Shown: piece after piece, positions 4,740 through 37,103 of the stretch
Layout of the letters: the number at the start of each line of letters is the position of its first letter
How positions within the stretch are numbered: position 1 is the stretch's first letter
DNA from: Clostridia bacterium
Lineage (GTDB): Bacteria > Bacillota > Clostridia > UMGS1883
NCBI GenBank assembly: GCA_017414645.1
Contig: JAFQLL010000038.1
Span: forward strand, 1 to 37,103
DNA: 37,103 bases
Direction of reading: 5' to 3'
Program-made: the position numbers and the translations under genes
The notes under the pieces: generated by a model
What the model saw: the letters and a program-made list of their open reading frames with translations, nothing else
The model's database searches: none
What the model was told of the DNA's origin: nothing

Positions 4740-4913
4740 AACTAAGTTTGCCCTTTGGGCAAGTGAAGTTGCCATAAGGCAGTGAAGTTACTTCGTAGTG
4801 AAGTTTCGTCGGGGCGAAGTAGCTTAGGGGCAAACTTAACTTCACTTTTGCAGGGCAAAAACTTCACTGTTTTGAAAAAACAACTTCACTTTTTACGAAG
4901 TAAAAAACTTCAC
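4740..4913 (+). repeat. Word-hairpin element family A, copy 1
   Basis: The 174-base element starts AACTAAGTTTGCC, carries three GTGAAGTT words in the first half and four AACTTCAC words in the second, and has GGCAAACTTA in the middle, complementary to TAAGTTTGCC near the start. Sequences between the words form short hairpins such as TTTTGC/GCAAAA and TTTTTAC/GTAAAAA. It follows the histidine kinase gene in the same orientation and precedes a terminator at 4946. Other copies are at 8612 (minus), 21140 and 23766. Confidence 0.9.
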
Positions 4914-5540: not shown

Positions 5541-5604
5541 AAATGAATTGCAAGCCATGCTTGCGTGAATTGACAACTGCGTTGTCATGAATTGCCTATG
5601 GCAG
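5541..5604. repeat. Word-hairpin element family B, left half only
   Basis: Three ATGAATTG or GTGAATTG words alternate with hairpins CAAGC-CAT-GCTTG and ACAAC-TGC-GTTGT, then CC-TAT-GG. The right half expected from the complete copy at 21403-21580 is missing. A different palindromic repeat (5605-5727) begins exactly there, so the element looks truncated. Confidence 0.7.
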
Positions 5605-5727
5605 GTGTAACTGGGGACGGGTGTAACTGGGGACGTGCCCGAAATTGCACGTTTTAAAGTGTTATTGGAAAAGGAATGTGCAAAAACAGGCACGTCCCCA
5701 ATTGCACATATCTGTCCCCAATTGCAC
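5605..5727. repeat. REP-like repeats with a GGGGACGTG core
   Basis: GTGTAACTGGGGACG occurs twice in tandem (from about 5606 and about 5621). TGGGGACGTGCC (5628-5639) pairs with GGCACGTCCCCA (5689-5700), and the block closes with two CCCCAATTGCACAT words. Palindromes of this GGGGACG type are commonly linked to REP-associated tyrosine transposases (RAYT, IS200-related). No transposase gene lies in the window. Confidence 0.65.
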
Positions 5728-8611: not shown

Positions 8612-8778
8612 GTGAAGTTTTTGCTATGGCAAAAGTGAAGTTGTTTAAAAACAGTGAAGTTTTGTGCTAAGCACAAAGTGAAGTTAAGTTTGCAATTAAC
8701 TGCACCGAAAGGTGCAACTTCACTGCGCAGCAACTTCACTATCAAAGATAACTTCACTTGCCAAAGGCAAACTTAGTT
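8612..8778 (-). repeat. Word-hairpin element family A, copy 2
   Basis: This 167-base copy is inverted relative to the other three but keeps the same order when read on the minus strand: AACTAAGTTTGCC, GTGAAGTT words, GGCAAACTTA, then AACTTCAC words. Hairpins between words include TTGTGC/GCACAA and TTTTGC/GCAAAA. It follows the minus-strand CD225-like gene, so its orientation relative to the upstream gene is the same as in copies 1, 3 and 4. Confidence 0.9.
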
Positions 8779-13640: not shown

Positions 13641-14017
13641 ATGAAATGCCTGTGGCATGAAATGGCTTTGCCATGATATGTTGCGTTGCAACATGATATG
13701 AACCAAAGGTTCATTGGGGAAGAAAAATCAAAGATTTTTCATTACATAGGAAATTGCGCGTAGAATGTGCGCATATTTGCTTGTAAAATAAAAGTGTACC
13801 TTTTCGTCCCCCAAGATTGGGGGACCGAGGGGGTTGAAGTGTTAAAACACTTTTTTATTTTATTAATCATAAGATTTGCAAAGCGCTGTGAGCGAAGCGA
13901 GGAAGTGCCCTCGGGGTGCAAATCTACCAAAATGCACGTAGTGCATATCATGAAGCCCTTGGGCTATATATCATGTGCCCGTGGCACATATCATGCAAGA
14001 CTTGCTTGCATATCATT
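13641..14017 (+). repeat. Word-hairpin element family C, copy 1 (interrupted)
   Basis: The left arm has ATGAAATG/ATGATATG words alternating with hairpins TGCC-TGT-GGCA, TGGC-TTT-GCCA, TGTTGC/GCAACA, TGAACC-AAA-GGTTCA and GAAAAATC-AAA-GATTTTTC. The core is a region shared with copy 2 (GATTTGCA, GTGAGCGAAGC, GGTGCAAATCTACCA). The right arm has ATATCAT words with hairpins ATGCAC-GTA-GTGCAT, GCCC-TTG-GGC and GTGCC-CGT-GGCAC. About 120 bases at 13745-13865 are extra relative to copy 2; they contain CCCCCAAGATTGGGGG and a terminator-like hairpin. The element ends a few bases before the glgA ribosome site. Confidence 0.85.
13837..13860 (+). terminator. Terminator-like hairpin inside the glgA leader
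   Basis: AAGTGT (13837-13842) pairs with ACACTT (13847-13852) around TAAA and is followed by TTTTATTTTATT. It lies between the promoter at 13602 and the glgA start at 14039, so it could attenuate glgA. The stem is short. Confidence 0.4.
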
Positions 14018-20906: not shown

Positions 20907-21122
20907 ATGGATACTATCGCTTTGATATTGGTTATAGTGGGGGCGCTGAACTGGGGCTCCATAGGGCTTTTCGGGCTCGACCTTGTAGGCTTTATTTTTG
21001 GCGGTCAGGGTGCGCTTTTCAGCCGCATTATTTTTGCGGTTGTTGGCTTGGCAGGGCTTTGGACAATTACCCTTCTGTTTAAAGACAAAACAGATACAAG
21101 ACAGGTTAATATGCATAAGTGA
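20907..21122 (+). CDS. DUF378 small membrane protein
   Basis: A 71-residue protein with two membrane helices (about 2-22 and 36-58). The opening MDTIALILVIVGALNWGSIG is the DUF378 signature (LVIIGALNWGLVG), seen in many Firmicutes; function unknown. I choose the ATG at 20907 because AAGGAAGG (20892-20899) is 7 bases upstream, whereas the ATG at 20901 is too close to it. It is transcribed away from the M23 peptidase gene and is followed by a hairpin, element A3 and a terminator. Confidence 0.88.
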   Translation: MDTIALILVIVGALNWGSIGLFGLDLVGFIFGGQGALFSRIIFAVVGLAGLWTITLLFKDKTDTRQVNMHK

Positions 21123-21139
21123 GCGTTTTGCGCTCACTT
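21117..21139 (+). terminator. Hairpin overlapping the DUF378 stop codon
   Basis: AAGTGAGCG (21117-21125) pairs with CGCTCACTT (21131-21139). There is no T run; element A3 begins at the next base. Confidence 0.45.
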
Positions 21140-21312
21140 AACTAAGTTTGCCTATCGGCAAGTGAAGTTCCCTTTGGAAGTGAAGTTGCTGCGCAGTGAA
21201 GTTTCGGCTTATGCCGAAGTGATTGGCAAACTTAAATTCACTTTATGCAAAGCATAAAACTTCACTATACACAAGGTGTATAACTTCACTTTTGCTTTAG
21301 CAAAAACTTCAC
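21140..21312 (+). repeat. Word-hairpin element family A, copy 3
   Basis: This 173-base copy has AACTAAGTTTGCC, three GTGAAGTT words, the central GGCAAACTTA, then AACTTCAC words. Hairpins include TTCGGC/GCCGAA, TTATGC-AAA-GCATAA, TACAC-AAG-GTGTA and TTTTGC-TTTA-GCAAAA. It lies in the 3' untranslated region of the DUF378 gene, 29 bases before a strong terminator. Confidence 0.92.
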
Positions 21313-21340
21313 AAAGCTTTTGATGAATAACCAGAATGTT

Positions 21341-21376
21341 GTAAAGAACTCCATCTACGGAGTTCTTTACTTTTTT
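21341..21376 (+). terminator. Intrinsic terminator after the DUF378 unit
   Basis: GTAAAGAACTCC (21341-21352) pairs perfectly with GGAGTTCTTTAC (21359-21370), followed by TTTTTT. Its right arm overlaps the -35 hexamer of the tex promoter. Confidence 0.9.
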
Positions 21377-21394
21377 AGAAATTTGTGGTATAAT
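21366..21394 (+). promoter_or_regulatory. SigA-type promoter for tex
   Basis: TTTACT (21366-21371) and TATAAT (21389-21394) are 17 bases apart. Transcription would start near 21401, the first base or so of element B1. Confidence 0.72.
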
Positions 21395-21402
21395 AAACAG
21401 GA

Positions 21403-21580
21403 ATGAATTGCACCTTGTGCGTGAATGACTTCGTATGAATTGACGCTTTGCGTCATGAATTGCCCAATGGGCATTATCGAAGAAACTCCGTAGGAGTTTC
21501 GACATAAATGTTTGCAACAGCAAACAATTCATTCTTCATGTGCGGAGCACAATTCACGAAAGCGGAGCTTTCAATTCATG
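21403..21580 (+). repeat. Word-hairpin element family B, complete copy
   Basis: Left-arm words ATGAATTG (or close variants) alternate with hairpins CAC-CTT-GTG, AC-TTC-GT, ACGC-TTT-GCGT and CCC-AAT-GGG. The centre is a 9-bp stem, CGAAACTCC-like, with GGAGTTTCG. The right arm has CAATTCAT-type words with hairpins TTTG/CAAA, GTGC-GGA-GCAC and AAAGC-GGA-GCTTT. The element fills the tex leader from the predicted start point to 40 bases before the ATG. A half copy is at 5541-5604. Confidence 0.88.
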
Positions 21581-21619
21581 TTTATTAAATATACTGATAT
21601 GAAAAGAGAGATGTTAACT

Positions 21620-23767
21620 ATGGACGCTATTACAAAGGCTTTATGCCTGGAATTCAACATAAAAGAGGAGCACGGCGAAAACGTGGTGAAGCTACTTGAC
21701 GAGGGTAACACAATTCCCTTCATTGCCCGTTACCGTAAGGAATTAACAGGTGCAATGGACGACCAGGTGCTTAGAAAATTTGCCGATAAATTAGAGGCTC
21801 TTCGTGCCTTGGAGGAAAGAAAGGCTGACGTTATCCGCCTTATTGATGAGCAGGGCAAATTGACAGAGGAAATTAAAGCGGCGGTTGAAAACGCAAAAAC
21901 CGTTACCGAGGTGGACGATATTTACCGCCCCTTCCGCCCCAAGAGAAAAACAAGAGCTACAATTGCTAAGGACAAGGGCTTAGAGCCTCTGGCAGACGCA
22001 ATTTATCTGCAGCTTGCATCCTTCGACCCTTATAAAGAGGCTGAAAAGTACATAGATGGTGAAAAGGGTGTTGAAACAGTAGAGGATGCAATAGCGGGCG
22101 CAATGGACATTATTGCCGAAAACATTTCCGACGATGCTGAAAACAGAAAGGCAATACGTGCAAAAACCTATGTTACAGCCCTTATTACAAGCGTAAATAA
22201 GGCAGAAAACCCTGTTTACGAAATGTATTACGAGTTTTCGGAAAAGGTAAACAAGGTTGCAAACCACAGAATTCTTGCTCTTGACCGTGGCGAGAAGGAG
22301 GGCGTGCTTACTGTTAAAATTGAAGCAGACGAGGCTGTTATGCACGAGGTTTTGTTTGCAAAGGCTGTTAACAAGGACGGCGGAAAATGTGCTGAAATTG
22401 TTATGGAAGCAATTTGTGACAGCTATAAGAGACTTATTGCACCTTCAATTGATACAGAAATAAGAAACATACTTACAGAGCGTGCCCAGGAGGCTGCCAT
22501 TGACCTTTTCAGCGTTAACCTTAAGAATTTGCTTATGGCACCGCCCATTAAGGGCAGGGTTGTGCTGGGTGTTGACCCCGGCTACAGAACAGGCTGTAAG
22601 CTGGCTGTTGTTGACTCGACGGGTAAGGTGCTGGAAACAGGCGTGGGCTACTTTACCCTTCCGCATCACGATAAGGAAAAGGCAAAGACTCAGATAAAGG
22701 GCATGATTAAGCGCAACAATGTTGACCTTGTTTCCATCGGTAACGGTACGGCAACAGGCGAAAGTGAAGAATTTGTGAGCGAGGTTATTGGCGAATTCGG
22801 CGGAAGTGTTAAGTACATGGTTGTTAGCGAGGCAGGCGCTTCTGTTTACAGTGCGTCAAAATTAGCGGCAGAAGAATTCCCCGAGTTTGACGTTGCTCTC
22901 CGTAGTGCGGTAAGTATTGCAAGACGATTGCAGGACCCCTTGGCTGAGCTTGTTAAAATTGACCCCAAATCCATTGGTGTTGGTCAGTACCAGCACGACT
23001 GTAACCAGAAGAGGCTTGCAGGCGCTCTTGACGGCGTTGTTGAAGACTGTGTTAACACAGTTGGTGTTGACCTTAACACAGCTTCGCCCTCGCTTTTAGG
23101 CCACATTTCAGGCGTGAGCAGTACAATTGCAAAGAATATTGTAAAATACCGTGAAGAAAACGGCGCATTCAAAAAACGCCGTGAGCTTTTAAAGGTAGCA
23201 AAGCTTGGCGAAAAAACCTTTTTGCAGTGTGCCGGCTTTATGCGCATAAGTGATGGCGACGAAATTTTTGACAACACAAGTGTGCACCCCGAAAGCTACG
23301 AGGCAGCAAAGGACATGCTCACTCTTTGCGGCTTTACAAAGGACGATGTAAAGCTGGGTAAGCTGGGCGGCTTTAAGGACAAGCTTTCAAAGGCAGACTT
23401 AAAGGAAATACTTGAAAAATATAACATTGGTATGGTAACCGTTACAGACATTGCCGACACACTTCTTAAGCCCGGCAGAGACGTGCGTGACGAATTGCCC
23501 AAGCCTTTGCTCCGCACAGGTGCAATCAGTATTGAAAGCCTTAAGGAAGGCATGGTGATTGAAGGCACTGTAAGAAATGTTATTGACTTTGGCGCCTTTG
23601 TTGACATTGGTGTGCATCAGGACGGGTTGGTGCATATTTCAAAAATATGCGATAAGTTCATTAAGCACCCCACCGAGGTTTTAAGCGTTGGCGACATTGT
23701 AAAGGTTAAGGTAATTGCCGTTGACGTGGAGAAAAAGAGAATATCCTTAAGCATCAAAGATGCTTAA
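21620..23767 (+). CDS. tex: Tex family RNA-binding transcription accessory protein
   Basis: A 715-residue Tex/YhgF protein, the bacterial relative of Spt6, a nucleic-acid-binding factor linked to transcription and stress tolerance. The helical N-terminal domain contains NTIPFIARYRKELTGAMDD; the YqgF-like domain starts at about 316 (GVDPGYRTGCKLAVVD); helix-hairpin-helix motifs are near 480-520 (DLNTASPSLLGHISGVSSTI); and the S1 domain fills about 640-710 (GTVRNVIDFGAFVDIGVHQD). The ATG at 21620 gives the usual family length and N-terminus, with AAAGAGAG 9 bases upstream; the open frame reaches 36 codons further back through the repeat leader. Its stop codon is part of the start of element A4. 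Confidence 0.96.
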   Translation: MDAITKALCLEFNIKEEHGENVVKLLDEGNTIPFIARYRKELTGAMDDQVLRKFADKLEALRALEERKADVIRLIDEQGKLTEEIKAAVENAKTVTEVDDIYRPFRPKRKTRATIAKDKGLEPLADAIYLQLASFDPYKEAEKYIDGEKGVETVEDAIAGAMDIIAENISDDAENRKAIRAKTYVTALITSVNKAENPVYEMYYEFSEKVNKVANHRILALDRGEKEGVLTVKIEADEAVMHEVLFAKAVNKDGGKCAEIVMEAICDSYKRLIAPSIDTEIRNILTERAQEAAIDLFSVNLKNLLMAPPIKGRVVLGVDPGYRTGCKLAVVDSTGKVLETGVGYFTLPHHDKEKAKTQIKGMIKRNNVDLVSIGNGTATGESEEFVSEVIGEFGGSVKYMVVSEAGASVYSASKLAAEEFPEFDVALRSAVSIARRLQDPLAELVKIDPKSIGVGQYQHDCNQKRLAGALDGVVEDCVNTVGVDLNTASPSLLGHISGVSSTIAKNIVKYREENGAFKKRRELLKVAKLGEKTFLQCAGFMRISDGDEIFDNTSVHPESYEAAKDMLTLCGFTKDDVKLGKLGGFKDKLSKADLKEILEKYNIGMVTVTDIADTLLKPGRDVRDELPKPLLRTGAISIESLKEGMVIEGTVRNVIDFGAFVDIGVHQDGLVHISKICDKFIKHPTEVLSVGDIVKVKVIAVDVEKKRISLSIKDA

Positions 23768-23940
23768 CTAAGTTTGCCCTGTCGAGCAAGTGAAGTTTCC
23801 TTTGGAAGTGAAGTTGCTACGCAGTGAAGTTTCGGCTTATGCCGAAGTGGTTGGCAAACTTAACTTCACTTTGTGTAAAACACAAAACTTCACTATACAC
23901 GAAGTGTATAACTTCACTTTTGCTTTAGCAAAAACTTCAC
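23766..23940 (+). repeat. Word-hairpin element family A, copy 4
   Basis: This 175-base copy is closest to copy 3. It shares TTCGGC/GCCGAA, TACAC/GTGTA and TTTTGC-TTTA-GCAAAA. It differs at other hairpins while keeping the pairing, for example TTGTG/CACAA where copy 3 has TTATG/CATAA. It begins inside the tex stop codon and lies before the terminator at 23951. Confidence 0.92.
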
Positions 23941-23950
23941 AAAACTTTGA

Positions 23951-23983
23951 AAAAAGGACGAACCGTGTTGGCTCGTCCTTTTT
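23951..23983. terminator. Bidirectional terminator between tex and trxB
   Basis: AAAAAGGACGA (23951-23961) pairs with TCGTCCTTTTT (23973-23983), extended by CC/GG inside. T runs follow on both strands, so it can end both tex (plus) and trxB (minus). Confidence 0.85.
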
Positions 23984-24026
23984 GTGATATATTGCAATTT
24001 AAGGCAGAGCTGTGCTCTGCTTTAAA

Positions 24027-24929
24027 TTATTGCTTTATATAGTCTACTGCATTAAGTGCGGCAATTGCGCCGTCGGAAACGGCTGTTGCAACCTGGCGTA
24101 TGCGCTTACTTCTGCAGTCGCCTGCAACAAAAATGCCTTCTACGTTTGTTGTACAGCTTTCATTTGAGTCAGCATAGCCGTAGGAATTTACGTTTATAAG
24201 GCCATTGAAGGGTTCGAGCTGGGGAATAAGACCTATGGCTGTAAACATGCCGTCAATTTTAAGGGTTTCAAGCTCGTCACCCTTCTGAATGCGGATACCT
24301 GTGAGAGTATCGTCGCCTAAAAGAGCAGAGACAACTGCGCCTTTTATGGGGGTAATGTTGGGAATTGTTTTAATTTCCTCAATGAGCTTTTCTTCGCCTG
24401 TAAAATAGTCAAGGTTCTGGATTATGTACACCTTTTCACAGCTTTCGGAAAGGAGAATTGCTTCCTGCAGTGCACTGTTGCCGCCGCCTATAACAGCAAC
24501 GGTTTTATCCTTATAAAATGCACCGTCGCAAACTGCGCAGAAGGAAATGCCGTTGCCGATGAAGTCTTCCTCCTTGGGAAGGTTTAAAAGGCGGTGGCAT
24601 GTGCCTGCGGCAATTATAACCGCCTTGGCAAAGTAATCGCCCTCGTCGGTTGTGACCTTTTTTAATTCTCCGTCGGTTATGCTGAGTGCTTCCAGGCATT
24701 CAATGTCGGCACCTAATCCCATTGCCTGCTCCATTAATTTATCGGCAAATTCGTTGCCTGAAACCGATTGGAAGCCGGGAATGTTTTCAACCTTGGGGGA
24801 AGAGGTTATCTGCCCACCGAAGGTGCCCTTTTCCATAACGAGCACACTTTTATTTGCACGGAGTGCGTAAACTGCGGCAGTGAGCCCTGCAGGACCGCCG
24901 CCTATAATGATTATATCGTATGTGTTCAT
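24027..24929 (-). CDS. trxB: Thioredoxin reductase-like flavoprotein, atypical NADPH site
   Basis: A 300-residue low-molecular-weight thioredoxin reductase fold. The FAD loop GGGPAG is at 10-15, the redox pair CAVC at 131-134, the second nucleotide loop GGGNSA at 148-153, and the C-terminal FAD motif with GIFVAGDCR near 265-273. The HRRxxxR motif, which binds the NADPH 2'-phosphate in classical enzymes, is absent: at that place (about 168-181) the sequence is YIIQNLDYFTGEEK. Known pyridine-independent or ferredoxin-dependent clostridial relatives also lack it, so the electron donor may be NADH or ferredoxin. GAAAGGAT precedes the ATG. It lies downstream of nrdD, whose product carries a thioredoxin-like domain. 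Confidence 0.88.
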   Translation of the reverse strand: MNTYDIIIIGGGPAGLTAAVYALRANKSVLVMEKGTFGGQITSSPKVENIPGFQSVSGNEFADKLMEQAMGLGADIECLEALSITDGELKKVTTDEGDYFAKAVIIAAGTCHRLLNLPKEEDFIGNGISFCAVCDGAFYKDKTVAVIGGGNSALQEAILLSESCEKVYIIQNLDYFTGEEKLIEEIKTIPNITPIKGAVVSALLGDDTLTGIRIQKGDELETLKIDGMFTAIGLIPQLEPFNGLINVNSYGYADSNESCTTNVEGIFVAGDCRSKRIRQVATAVSDGAIAALNAVDYIKQ

Positions 24930-24946
24930 TGTTTTATCCTTTCGGA

Positions 24947-25196
24947 ATGATATGCGCTTTGCGCATGATATTACTTTGTAATGATATGTCGCTATGCGAC
25001 ATGATATGAACTTTCAGTTCATTAAGGTGGAAAATTCTTCGAATTTTCATTTTATTGAATCAATGATTTGCACCATGCCGTGAGCGAAGCAAGGAAGCGC
25101 CCTTAGGGTGCAAATCTACCACAATGCCCTTCGGGCATATCATGAAACCGTAAGGTTTTATATCATGATTTATCATATCATGCGGAGCATATCATT
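24947..25196. repeat. Word-hairpin element family C, copy 2
   Basis: ATGATATG words alternate with hairpins ATGCGC-TTT-GCGCAT, TTAC-TTT-GTAA, TGTCGC-TAT-GCGACA, TGAACT-TTC-AGTTCA and AAAATTC-TTC-GAATTTT. The core with GTGAGCGAAGC and GGTGCAAATCTACCA follows, then ATATCAT words with ATGCCC-TTC-GGGCAT and AAACC-GTA-GGTTT. It fills the gap between nrdD and trxB and ends 2 bases before the GAAAGGAT ribosome site of trxB. The core has the opposite orientation to these genes, unlike copy 1 at glgA. Confidence 0.88.
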
Positions 25197-25197
25197 C

Positions 25198-25225
25198 AAC
25201 ACGCACCCACAAAGGGGTGCGTGTT
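25198..25225. terminator. Hairpin after nrdD
   Basis: AACACGCACCC (25198-25208) pairs with GGGTGCGTGTT (25215-25225). On the minus strand, the direction of nrdD, no T run follows; the word repeat begins directly. Termination of nrdD here is therefore doubtful and trxB may be co-transcribed. Confidence 0.5.
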
Positions 25226-25231
25226 GTTTTC

Positions 25232-27598
25232 TTAAGCTTTTAAAAATTTCTTTATGTCAGAAACGCCTGCGAACTTTTCTGCTGTGCCACCCTTTACAAC
25301 CACCAATGTGGGAGCCTGCTTGATTTCAAGTGCAGTTGCCAATTCCTTGTTTTCGTCAGCAAGGAGCTTTGTGTAAAGAATGCCTGCCTTGTCAAGAATT
25401 GCACATGCCATTTTACAGTTGGGGCAGGTTGCAGTTGTAAACACGTAGTAACCGTCTGCCATGTCAACAGTTTCGTTTGCTGCTTCGGTAGCTACGTCGC
25501 AAACTGCGTCCTTTGCTTTAAGTGTGCTTGATGCTACGTTGTAAACTTTTCTTTCCTTGTATTCCTGTGTTTTACCATCGTTCCAGTTCTGTACGGGACG
25601 ATAGTAGCCTGTGATACGGCTGTAAACCTCGGTTGTGCCACCGCAATGAGGACATGTGAACTGCTCGCCTGCAAGGTAGCCATGGTCCTTACAGATGGAA
25701 TAGGTGGGGGAAAGTGTGTAGTAGGGAAGACGATAATTTTCGGCAATCTTTTTAACAAGGTTTGCCGCTGCCTGCCAGTCAGGAAGCTTTTCGCCTAAGA
25801 ATGCATGGAATACTGTACCTGAGGTATAAAGTGTCTGCAATTCGTCCTGAACGTCAAGGGCTGTGAAAATGTCTTCTGTATAGCCAACGGGAAGGTGAGA
25901 GGAGTTTGTATAGTAGGGTGTGCCGTCCTTTTCACCTGCTGTGATAATGTCGGGGTAATGCTTTAAGTCGTGCTTTGCAAGACGGAAAGCTGTAGATTCC
26001 GCAGGAGTTGCCTCTAAGTTGTACAAATCGCCGTATTCTACCTGATAGTCGGAAAGGCGTTCGCGCATGTGGTTGAGTACGTCTTTGGCAAACTGCTGTG
26101 TTTTTTCTTCTGTAAGGTCAGCACGGATCCACTTTGCGTTAAGACCTGCTTCGTTCATACCAACAAGACCAATTGTGGAGAAGTGGTTGTTGAAGGTGCC
26201 TAAGTAACGCTTTGTGTAGGGGTAAAGGCCGCTGTCAAGAAGCTTGCTGATAACAGTTCTCTTAACCTTAAGGCTGCGTGCTGCAATGTCCATCATGTGG
26301 TCCAATCTTTCGTAGAAGTCCTTTTCGTCCTTAGCAAGGTATGCAATACGGGGAATGTTGATTGTTACAACGCCCACGCTACCTGTGGATTCGCCGCTAC
26401 CGAAGTAACCGCCCGACTTTTTACGGAGCTCACGAAGGTCGAGACGTAAGCGACAGCACATGCTTCGTACATCGCTGGGCTCCATGTCGGAGTTGATGTA
26501 GTTGGAGAAGTAGGGTGTGCCGTACTTACTTGTCATTTCGAACAAAAGACGGTTGTTTTCTGTGTCGGACCAGTCGAAGTCCTTTGTGATGGAATAGGTG
26601 GGAATGGGGTACTGGAAGCCACGGCCGTTAGCATCGCCATCGATCATAACCTCGATAAATGCCTTGTTGACCATGTCCATTTCCTTCTGGCAATCCTTAT
26701 ACTTGAAGTTAACCTCTTTGCCACCTATGATGCAGTTTAATTCTGCAAGGTCGTTGGGTACAACCCAGTCAAGAGTGATGTTTGTGAAGGGTGACTGTGT
26801 GCCCCAGCGGGAGGGTGTGTTAACACCGTAAATGAAGGATTCGATGCACTTTTTAACCTGTTCGTAGGAAAGGTTGTCCACCTTTACGAAGGGTGCAAGG
26901 TATGTATCGAAGGATGAAAACGCCTGAGCGCCTGCCCATTCATTCTGCATGATACCTAAGAAGTTAACCATCTGGTTGCAGAGTGTTGCAAGATGGCTTG
27001 CAGGGGAAGATGTAATCTTGCCGGGAACACCGCCCAAGCCCTCCTGAATGAGCTGCTTCAAGGACCAGCCTGCACAGTAGCCTGTGAGCATGGACAAGTC
27101 GTGAATGTGAATGTCGGCGTTGCGGTGCGCATTGGAAATTTCGTCGTCATAAATTTCGCTGAGCCAGTAGTTGGCACTGATTGCACCTGAGTTTGAAAGG
27201 ATAAGACCACCAACAGAGTAGGTAACGGTGGAATTTTCCTTAACACGCCAGTCGTTTATCTGAAGATAGTTGTCAACGATTGCCTTATAGTCAACCATTG
27301 TGGCGTTGAGGTTACGGATTTTTTCTCTCTGACGGCGATAGATGATGTATGCCTTTGCAACATCGTCGTAGCCTGCCTTGATAAGAACAGATTCAACACT
27401 GTCCTGAATGTGTTCAACCTCAATGTTGCCGTCCTTGATTTTGGGCTCGAATTCGGCTGTAACCTTTAATGCTAAGAAATCGATAATGTCAGGATTGTAC
27501 TGTCGGTTGCAGGCATCAAATGCCTGGCTGATTGCTGTAGAGATTTTGGAAAGGTCGAAGGAGACCATTTTTCCGTCTCTTTTTAATACGTTATACAT
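25232..27598 (-). CDS. nrdD: Anaerobic ribonucleotide reductase with fused thioredoxin-like domain
   Basis: A 788-residue class III ribonucleoside-triphosphate reductase. The ATP-cone is at about 1-95 (NVLKRDGKMVSFDLSKI), then the glycyl-radical barrel. Near the end of the core are the metal site CKDHGYLAGEQFTCPHC and the radical glycine G664 in RITGYYRPVQNWNDG. The usual enzyme stops soon after this. Here a linker and a thioredoxin/glutaredoxin-like domain follow (about 714-788) with active site CPNC (725-728) and a cis-proline APTLVV (P763). The fusion suggests electrons for nucleotide reduction come from a redoxin rather than formate. AAGGGAG precedes the ATG. trxB follows it; nrdG lies upstream, separated by inserted genes. 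Confidence 0.95.
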   Translation of the reverse strand: MYNVLKRDGKMVSFDLSKISTAISQAFDACNRQYNPDIIDFLALKVTAEFEPKIKDGNIEVEHIQDSVESVLIKAGYDDVAKAYIIYRRQREKIRNLNATMVDYKAIVDNYLQINDWRVKENSTVTYSVGGLILSNSGAISANYWLSEIYDDEISNAHRNADIHIHDLSMLTGYCAGWSLKQLIQEGLGGVPGKITSSPASHLATLCNQMVNFLGIMQNEWAGAQAFSSFDTYLAPFVKVDNLSYEQVKKCIESFIYGVNTPSRWGTQSPFTNITLDWVVPNDLAELNCIIGGKEVNFKYKDCQKEMDMVNKAFIEVMIDGDANGRGFQYPIPTYSITKDFDWSDTENNRLLFEMTSKYGTPYFSNYINSDMEPSDVRSMCCRLRLDLRELRKKSGGYFGSGESTGSVGVVTINIPRIAYLAKDEKDFYERLDHMMDIAARSLKVKRTVISKLLDSGLYPYTKRYLGTFNNHFSTIGLVGMNEAGLNAKWIRADLTEEKTQQFAKDVLNHMRERLSDYQVEYGDLYNLEATPAESTAFRLAKHDLKHYPDIITAGEKDGTPYYTNSSHLPVGYTEDIFTALDVQDELQTLYTSGTVFHAFLGEKLPDWQAAANLVKKIAENYRLPYYTLSPTYSICKDHGYLAGEQFTCPHCGGTTEVYSRITGYYRPVQNWNDGKTQEYKERKVYNVASSTLKAKDAVCDVATEAANETVDMADGYYVFTTATCPNCKMACAILDKAGILYTKLLADENKELATALEIKQAPTLVVVKGGTAEKFAGVSDIKKFLKA

Positions 27599-32692: not shown

Positions 32693-32840
32693 AATGCAGA
32701 GTGCAGAATGCAGAATACAGAATTGCGCTGCGCTACGGAGGGGAGAAATGAGTGCAGAATGTAAAGCTCAAAACGATGGAAAGAATTCCGCTTGCGGAAT
32801 TTTACCTTAACTCTGCACTTTGCACTCTGCATTCTGCACT
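32693..32840. repeat. Word repeat, family D, full copy
   Basis: The left arm has TGCAGA words (GAATGCAGAGTGCAGAATGC) and the right arm their reverse complement (CACTCTGCATTCTGCACT), with hairpins such as GAATTCCGC/GCGGAATT between. It sits between the converging ABC and phosphoglucomutase genes, bracketed by a terminator on each side. A half copy is at 926-963. Confidence 0.7.
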
Positions 32841-36607: not shown

Positions 36608-36838
36608 TTACACCTCCGTAAAGTTAACTTCTATACAATCGGCATCCTCATTCCGAAGGGCAATGGTGGTGCCCGAAAAAAGGTATGCCTTCATTTTGCC
36701 TGACAGATTGCAGAAAAGACACTCTATGGGAGAAGAGGGCGACATTCCCATATCTGTAAGCCTTAAAAATAAAGAATGAGGATTATTCAAGCGAGAAAGG
36801 GTGGCTTTTTCTCCCACGTTGAGCTTGGAAAGCTTCAT
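36608..36838 (-). CDS. feoA: FeoA SH3-like accessory protein
   Basis: A 76-residue FeoA, a small cytoplasmic beta-barrel needed for FeoB function. It begins MKLSKLNVGEKATLSRLNN, has RLTDMGMSPSSPIEC (family LxxLGLxPGxxV) and ends GTTIALRNEDADCIEV. GGAGG precedes the ATG. It overlaps no other gene and is followed 2 bases later by feoB. The upstream region is occupied by tandem repeat E. Confidence 0.92.
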   Translation of the reverse strand: MKLSKLNVGEKATLSRLNNPHSLFLRLTDMGMSPSSPIECLFCNLSGKMKAYLFSGTTIALRNEDADCIEVNFTEV

Positions 36839-36874
36839 AGGTTTTCCTCCATTCTCATGGTTAATATATGCACA

Positions 36875-37103
36875 AGGGGAAGGATATGTGCGTGTGCATG
36901 ATGTGCAAGCACATAATGAATAATGAAGCCGCTATGCTGATGAATATTGAATAATGAAAAATTAATGAAGAAAATCGCCTGCAGCGATTTTCAACCAAAA
37001 TTATTCATCCTTCATTAGGGGAAGGATATGTGCGTGTGCATGATGTGCAAGCACATAATGAATAATGAAGCCGCTATGCTGATGAATATTGAATAATTAA
37101 AAA
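36875..37103. repeat. Tandem repeat with 142-bp period, family E words
   Basis: A block of about 87 bases starting AGGGGAAGGATATG (36875) recurs with one mismatch from 37017 to the window end. It contains TGTGC and GCACA arms and AATAATGAA/ATGAATATT words. Between the two copies lies a stem of GAAAATCGC with GCGATTTTC (about 36969-36992), then the inverted words TTATTCAT and TTCATT. The array probably continues beyond the window. It lies upstream of feoA. Confidence 0.75.

Follow-up and report, generated by a model that had tools for sequence, protein, structure and literature searches.

Two-arm heptamer arrays of Clostridia and their S23-family partner genes, a probable class of very small mobile elements

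The array upstream of tex and its relatives in the window

Upstream of the tex gene there is a gap of 497 bases which holds two word arrays, one of family A and one of family B. Both lie in the window, by which we mean the whole stretch of 37,103 nucleotides that was analyzed. In the B array the left word ATGAATTG stands at 21403, 21435, and 21455, with a degenerate word GTGAAT at 21421, and three reverse-complement words (CAATTCAT/CAATTCAC) follow at 21525, 21550, and 21572; small hairpins separate the words. Folded as a single strand the array reached a z value of -6.0 as DNA and -5.0 as RNA, and none of 200 shuffled sequences equaled it. Four family A arrays and two family C arrays of the window share this plan. 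The arrays of the window are:

21403..21580, + strand: two-arm array of family B, ATGAATTG / CAATTCAT, with a TATAAT-like box on one side and the tex start on the other; gene-less copy
21140..21312, + strand: family A array, GTGAAGT / ACTTCAC, 5' of the B array and preceded by a hairpin (21116-21140)
4744..4913, + strand: family A array
8612..8774, - strand: family A array in reverse orientation
23770..23940, + strand: family A array, flanked by tex and a trxB-like gene
24947..25195, + strand: family C array, ATGATAT / ATATCAT
13641..14016, + strand: family C array, its centre holding another dispersed repeat (about 13745-13860)
5543..5604, + strand: left arm of a family B array, next to a RAYT-type REP block (by eye)
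32694..32839, no strand: family D, plain tandem GCAGAAT heptamers, then their reverse complement
36782..37103, no strand: family E, GAATAAT/TAATGAA heptamers in both orientations, running off the contig end

The initial annotation had described families A, B, and C as one architecture, with a word arm, a centre, a reverse-complement arm, and small hairpins in between. This description holds, and the architecture recurs in many Clostridia genomes. Families D and E, which had tentatively been placed on the same plan, consist for the most part of plain repeats of a heptamer, with no hairpins separating the words. The proposed scan for opposed blocks of words, run for any heptamer over the window and 20 further stretches of its genome, found 15 arrays in 307,201 bases and none in one locally dinucleotide-shuffled copy; their words are of the GTGAAGT, TGAATTG, ATGATAT, and TGAAAT types. 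The words had also been said to share no sequence. The lexicons do differ, but they are not wholly unrelated: the 11 hairpin-spaced words which we chose by hand are all heptamers that have A as their fourth and T as their seventh base, the singletons GTGAAGA, ATGAAGC, GCAGAAT, GAATTAG, ATGGCAA, and CGCTAGT being left out of this table. Plain-tandem words from other phyla do not match the rule.

Several further features of the arrays were seen. The left-arm-only B array at 5543-5720 is followed by the REP block (GGGGACGGG/CGTCCCC-like), and the dispersed repeat nested in the C-array centre (CGTCCCCCAAGATTGGGGGACCGAGGGGGTTGAAG) has a close relative at another place in the genome (L133 12965-13138). 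Certain A arrays have a centre module like GTGAGCGAAGCGAGGAAG...GGGGTGC in common with certain C arrays (window about 25077-25120 and 13890-13925; L136 6940-6990; L177), and modules may thus pass between lexicons. Two contigs of genome G000 (C20 and C78; L181, L182) break off within a single A array, part of which seems to be duplicated; possibly the arrays break short-read assemblies.

Conservation of the plan and upkeep of the hairpins

A pattern scan of GTDB genomes for the A word gave at least 117 stretches, and the 80 matches listed come from Clostridia, Clostridiales, Oscillospiraceae, or Ruminococcus MAGs. Among 139 A-word clusters (at least three words) the two-arm plan with at least five words was present in 75; many clusters are one-armed and seven have the opposite order. 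Family-A word pairs number 66 in the genome of the window, eight and one in two congeners and none in two others; of 17 further genomes from the family, two have a single pair.

An alignment of 33 canonical A copies showed that words and hairpin places are in common and that the heptamer stays constant across species while the hairpins vary. The pairing persists nevertheless. Watson–Crick pairs occupy 93% of the stem positions in 575 stretches between exact words, compared with 28% after shuffling; 485 of these hairpins are near perfect and intermediates are few. When the 3' halves were re-dealt among distinct hairpins, pairing fell from 97 to 58% for hp2 and from 91-95 to 48-61% for hp3 and hp5-hp7 (hp4 was left out of this count). 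The first hairpin, hp1, is conserved in sequence and gave no covariation in this test. The same is seen by eye between orthologous arrays of the own genome (C78) and of the congener G013, whose flanks are 84.5% identical: paired changes and loop changes distinguish the two copies of hp5, hp6, and hp7, and at hp4 the whole hairpin has been replaced. The initial reading is right on this point, in that pairing persists while the hairpin sequence changes.

Near-perfect hairpins with few intermediates are also what template switching that perfects quasi-palindromes, together with slippage that multiplies words, could leave behind with no protein involved, and tandem growth of units was seen in two loci (L042, L095). 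Such a process possibly contributes to the upkeep of the hairpins. As the only explanation we regard it as quite improbable, because the heptamer is kept across species while the hairpins change and follows the clade of an S23 protein, and because runs of period 7 occur at S23 genes and at none of the control genes of the same plasmids (see below). Template switching alone, one of the causes named initially, thus leaves unexplained why the heptamer tracks the protein clade and why the gene and its array move jointly.

By eye, the reverse complement of the first hairpin's 5' half is found again at the centre in several lexicons; this is absent from the B copy of the window. The B copy had suggested that host flanks are mirrored across the array. 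We rejected this, as the mean complementarity over 108 arrays was 0.419, compared with 0.429 for re-dealt flanks.

Genes of the S23 family adjoin the arrays

Beside several A arrays lies a gene for one protein of about 120 residues, which is a four-helix bundle of the S23 or 23S_rRNA_IVP family (PF05635, TIGR02436). The gene on contig C11 of the own genome scored 79.1 bits against PF05635 (cut-off 33.8) and the protein of locus L040 97.6 against TIGR02436 (cut-off 24); the structure 2rld in the PDB is a relative (E 6e-22). To our knowledge the function of the S23 family has long been unknown and no catalytic activity is known for it. An S23 ORF is present in 12 of the 117 A-array stretches; it adjoins an A array in 11 of them and an NCGATAT array in L057. 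The family-A array stops immediately 5' of the ribosome-binding site of the S23 gene; in other copies the gene sits between the two arms.

The three PF05635 genes of the own genome adjoin three words, GTGAAGT, GATGAAAT, and GCAGAAT (the last by eye). This genome, which is 89% complete, yielded no S23 gene for the B or the C word, so the B and C arrays are orphans there. Within the same genus there are 15 PF05635 genes in four of five genomes. Here C arrays enclose an S23 gene in two loci (L196 and L197) and the B word has an S23 partner in one (L194 of G011; by eye); further B-word partners were found by script in L222, L282, and L284.

At the level of the class, PF05635 was found at E ≤0.001 in 64 of 196 genomes, in 59 of them above the cut-off. 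We examined 102 S23 loci, 62 from the searches and 40 from the top of the class-level match list (G104:C125 was passed over), and 96 of them yielded 97 S23 ORFs. A gene was counted as array-positive if it had at least one of three features: a hairpin array, a period-7 run, or inverted heptamers. This was the case for 51 of 68 genes in the near clade and 7 of 29 in the far clade, the line between the two having been drawn, after the list was seen, at 125 bits of a model seeded with the family-A S23 protein. With periods other than 7 no near-clade gene and one far-clade gene were positive. At many, not all, of the 17 near-clade genes that were negative by script, arrays are visible by eye. Control ORFs were positive in 29 of 198 cases in the array-rich own genome and in 8 of 57 at the tex loci, and no hairpin array was found at six distant ORFs of class-level genomes.

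Words follow protein clades, and the array travels with the gene

We labeled the words by hand on a quick tree built from 108 S23 proteins. The 45 labeled rows carry six words and require nine changes, five being the minimum possible. When the 63 unlabeled rows, singleton words among them, were treated as a seventh group, 18 changes were counted, compared with 43.5 after shuffling, and none of 200 shuffles was as low; the tree has few columns, near-copies inflate the clustering, and one labeled fragment (L289) falls below the length filter. GTGAAGT has 10 of its 11 rows in one starred clade, and all nine GCTAAAT rows form one clade with a support of 80. Together with RTGAAAT and NCGATAT these words belong each mainly to one clade, ATGAATW and RTGATAT are split, and the B and C words do not form single clades. 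The S23 protein of L057, a locus fetched for its A array, falls in the NCGATAT clade and so matches the NCGATAT array beside it. One process or requirement met by many lexicons had been proposed at the outset; the single architecture stands, but the lexicons are not independent, since the words go with paralogous S23-family proteins.

In the GCTAAAT, RTGATAT-like, and ATGAATT lexicons, where the ends of the full unit are readable, it is about 640 bp long and, besides a two-arm array of heptamers and the S23 gene, includes a short tail. We compared units by blastn (matches of at least 250 nt and 80%). Two loci from different taxonomic families, L212 (f1) and L262 (f28), are 93.6% identical over 652 nt, and L262 and L245, which lie in one genome, agree to 98% over 636 nt. 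Further matches across families are L208/L248/L261 (87-93%) and L209/L250/L252/L263 (84-89%); L282 and L284, within one family, reach 90%. The similarity spans array and gene and stops near the unit ends, and the flanks differ by eye. We therefore conclude that the array travels with the gene. For the pair L198/L268, which also share the preceding tRNA, vertical descent is possible. The mobile character that had been considered for these arrays is supported by units that recur between taxonomic families (84-94% identical) and twice within a single genome (98%). A target-site duplication or an exact empty site was not seen at unit ends placed by eye in comparisons above strain level. The GCTAAAT and ATGAATT units of L212, L262, L245, L282, and L284 have nearly the same left end (CCCTGRCTTGACATGAG-like). 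Longer matches occur in some pairs of the far clade; L238 and L239, which belong to two families, agree to 98.5% over 1,630 nt, more than the length of the near-clade unit.

Occupation of individual sites changes between close relatives. The tex upstream gaps of the congeners G011, G014, and G012 measure 94, 141, and 205 bases and contain neither the A nor the B array; that of G012 has GTGATAT/GCGATAT words with hairpins. Ordinary vertical decay of one ancestral sequence had been named as a refutation of the first reading. In its simple form it is at odds with the tex locus, where three of four congeners are without A and B arrays; G012 has an array of a different word there, and in G013 the neighborhood differs. 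Downstream of tex, G011 and G014 carry an ATGAAAT array where the window has the A array 23770..23940, and between these two congeners the ATGAAAT array is inverted together with two flanking terminator-like hairpins (L148 3715-3919, L149 3679-3883). The C11 locus of the own genome and the orthologous G013 locus have different S23 elements between the same neighbors. One might argue from the two A and ATGAAAT arrays at the same place 3' of tex, and from the two elements at the C11 locus, that the arrays are target sites or hot spots on which S23 units merely land. We give this little credence, because the similarity across families covers array and gene together and ends near both unit ends. 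In two species of one genus (L192, L205) a single intergenic site is occupied by two different S23 elements, with GTGAAGT and GTTATAT words.

S23 genes of other phyla, plasmids, and phages

With the protein as query we found S23 genes on 25 plasmid records and two gut-phage scaffolds, each less than 60% identical. Seventeen loci were analyzed, 15 plasmid places (13 from cyanobacteria, one from Bernardetia (Bacteroidota), one from Treponema) and both scaffolds; since there are near-copies among them (three Planktothrix; four Nostoc with CAATTCG), the independent cases are fewer than 17. Inverted heptamers, that is, two or more copies of a heptamer on one side of the gene and two or more of its reverse complement on the opposite side, were found at 14 of the 17 loci and at 3 of 201 control ORFs, which were taken from one 50-kb stretch of each of five of the same plasmids. 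An annotated fragment of a four-helix-bundle gene within a control stretch was tested apart and was positive, with three and four copies. The three negative loci are Treponema, with degenerate repeats and a period-7 run of 13, and both gut-phage scaffolds, which have hairpin arrays upstream of the S23 gene. Exact period-7 runs of at least 14 occur at 13 of the 17 loci, and no run of periods 3-12 was found at the 201 control ORFs.

The element is not commonly found in phage or viral contigs: the A pattern was present in four stretches of viral_contigs, phages contributed two records by the S23 protein, and in phages the A pattern was not found by DNA. On Planktothrix plasmids two S23 genes with heptamer arms (L298, L309) adjoin annotated DISARM, BREX, or restriction enzymes.

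Gut-1 RNA and the question of DNA or RNA

The consensus of the candidate RNA Gut-1 (RF01706), with UGAAAU words between small hairpins, corresponds to the left arm of RTGAAAT arrays. Gut-1 is listed as "Human gut only" among likely noncoding RNAs known only from environmental sequences (PMC2864571). At or above the Rfam gathering score it was found in 11 of 37 loci scanned, with RTGAAAT and RTGATAT-type arms: four of the first 20 (L193, L198, L217, L268) and seven of a further 17 (L129, L143, L224, L270, L286, L300, L301). Nine of these are S23 loci; the arrays of L129 and L143, from the own genome, are without a gene. Both arms of the L198 array match Gut-1, on opposite strands. The window has no match at the gathering score. 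Below the cut-off of 50 bits, a 4.3-kb search gave the left arms of one C array (24947..25195, 45.9 bits) and two A arrays (40.9 and 34.2 bits; 21140..21312 among them) with E values of 5e-7 to 5e-4, and the B array found no Gut-1 match even at E up to 1 (window 21000-25300). Arrays of the Gut-1 type (RTGAAAT or RTGATAT) often stand just behind tRNA genes, as judged from Rfam tRNA matches (L198, L268, L300, L143, L270, L286, L224).

The initial view that no described element class has this plan needs amendment: one arm of one lexicon had been described as Gut-1, and for the two-arm plan with an S23 gene we found no description in the literature searched. In its original description Gut-1 has a single arm and is a candidate noncoding RNA from sequences of the human gut; in the present data it makes up one of the two arms of an element that has many words and an S23 gene. 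The portion of PMC2864571 that we consulted makes no mention of a second arm or of a link to S23.

The array, or one arm of it, could accordingly be a structured RNA, either a noncoding RNA or a leader of the S23 gene which later spread elsewhere. The classification of Gut-1 as a likely noncoding RNA in PMC2864571 speaks for this, as does the end of the family-A array directly before the S23 ribosome-binding site. Placement may be added: of 115 arrays 7 lie in ORFs, 24 lack a gene on one side, and 49, 28, and 7 lie in co-directional, convergent, and divergent gaps, so that arrays rarely stand in divergent-gene gaps (7 of 84 placed); the background gaps of at least 150 bases in the same sequences number 148, 64, and 66 (ORFs covered by an array to more than 40% were dropped beforehand).

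The hairpins themselves point the other way. In family A, 121 of 207 loops of the 5' arm are of the type TNY and 104 of 192 loops of the 3' arm of the class RNA, mostly GNA; the other families pooled gave 37 of 51 and 20 of 39. The opposite class is rare (12 and 3 in the 5' arms and 8 and 1 in the 3' arms of family A and the pooled families, in this order of arms). The arms are thus reverse complements in their loops too, and neither strand is privileged. Oriented family-A hairpins with at least three pairs and at most one mispair (67 elements, 784 pairs) have four G-T, three A-C, and eight other mispairs, and a looser count gave 25 G-T and 16 A-C; in neither count did we see the G-U excess by which RNA-level selection would be recognized. 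Since the hairpins are paired and their loop classes mirrored with no such excess, the sequences favor DNA rather than RNA as the level at which the hairpins are maintained. The TATAAT-like box, which by eye lies 3' of the array in some units, and the two Gut-1 matches on opposite strands of L198 are also at odds with a structured RNA, which we consider unlikely though worth keeping in mind.

Terminator-like hairpins were rejected as the source of the loop classes, as 33 of them with three-base loops gave five TNY and three RNA loops. C-GNA-G loops are reportedly unusually stable in DNA. When two word-hairpin-word units were folded as DNA on both strands, we saw no advantage of the GNA strand (-0.6 to -2.8 kcal/mol).

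A proposed mobile element and its relation to known systems

We think that the arrays are probably the nucleic-acid half of very small mobile elements whose sole gene is S23, and that the array 21403-21580 is a gene-less derivative. At the level of sequence this is suggested by the association of array and gene, the concordance of clade and word, the co-travel, the recent second copy, the patchy occupation, and the maintenance of the hairpins. The hairpins of diverged copies are closer to perfect than one would expect if the copies were passive and dead, and this counts against the reading as gene-less derivatives. The orphan state of the B and C arrays in the own genome, the near-clade genes negative by script, the array-positive ordinary genes of array-rich genomes, and the earlier proposal of Gut-1 as a noncoding RNA speak against the explanation as well. 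Because protein clades go with their own heptamers, an S23 protein most likely binds the heptamer of its own clade. An S23 oligomer could gather the opposed heptamers as the arms extrude or turn single-stranded, with the mini-hairpins holding the fold, and host replication or repair enzymes might then copy the strand to a new intergenic site. Gene-less arrays would be dispersed derivatives that either move with the protein supplied in trans or are remnants, the relation being that of REPINs to RAYTs.

On balance we lean, by a small degree, towards a wider statement, namely that S23 proteins are sequence-specific partners of heptamer arrays across phyla and form an undescribed minimal class of mobile elements, without a transposase, integrase, or reverse transcriptase of its own, which also lies behind Gut-1 and the STRR repeats. 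If true, this class would be about 0.6 kb in size with one gene of no known catalytic activity, and three orphans would be joined in one system: the widespread S23 family, the heptamer repeats, whose origin is not known, and Gut-1 as a candidate RNA. At every locus one would predict that the heptamer beside an S23 gene is the word which that S23 protein binds. The S23-heptamer system appears to be new; its pieces (the Gut-1 arm, the S23 family, tandem heptamers) were known. In the literature, with subscription journals mostly outside the search, we found no description of two-arm arrays with S23.

REPIN-RAYT systems consist of dispersed intergenic hairpin repeats with a cognate Y1 transposase gene, in paralogous partner-repeat pairs. 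The S23 arrays resemble them in being dispersed hairpin repeats with a cognate single-gene partner, here S23, in paralogous pairs. They differ in that the partner is a four-helix bundle and not a Y1 transposase, and in that the heptamer between the hairpins is conserved while the hairpin sequence is free. By analogy they are best seen as working like REPIN-RAYT, with the defining protein replaced by an unrelated one. That they are themselves REP or REPIN elements of a RAYT has next to no probability: dispersed intergenic repeats with hairpins would agree with it and there are two Y1 genes in the genome (L171, L172), but both are flanked by REP-like pairs of their own, with no word array by eye. 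We therefore rejected RAYT as the partner, its Y1 genes going with other repeats in the own genome.

Avd of diversity-generating retroelements has a four-helix-bundle fold related to S23; the 640-bp unit found here has no room for a reverse transcriptase. Intervening sequences of 23S rRNA with S23p share with our units the protein family, the character of a small selfish element, and, in Coxiella, three tandem heptamers, which lie upstream of the S23p ORF (PMC4990558); the present arrays are multi-copy, multi-word, and two-armed. That the S23 clades are such rRNA intervening sequences was rejected, as no rRNA was found in the 20 near-clade loci and 20 of the 29 far-clade loci scanned.

The STRR heptamer repeats of cyanobacteria are said to be tandem heptamers, with small SDR hairpins embedded in them; we know of no link between them and S23 proteins. 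The likeness lies in the tandem heptamers, which 13 of the 17 plasmid and phage S23 loci show as period 7 and which in the window are plain only in families D and E. The difference is that in our data the S23 genes of Nostoc plasmids are enclosed by heptamer arms in inverted orientation.
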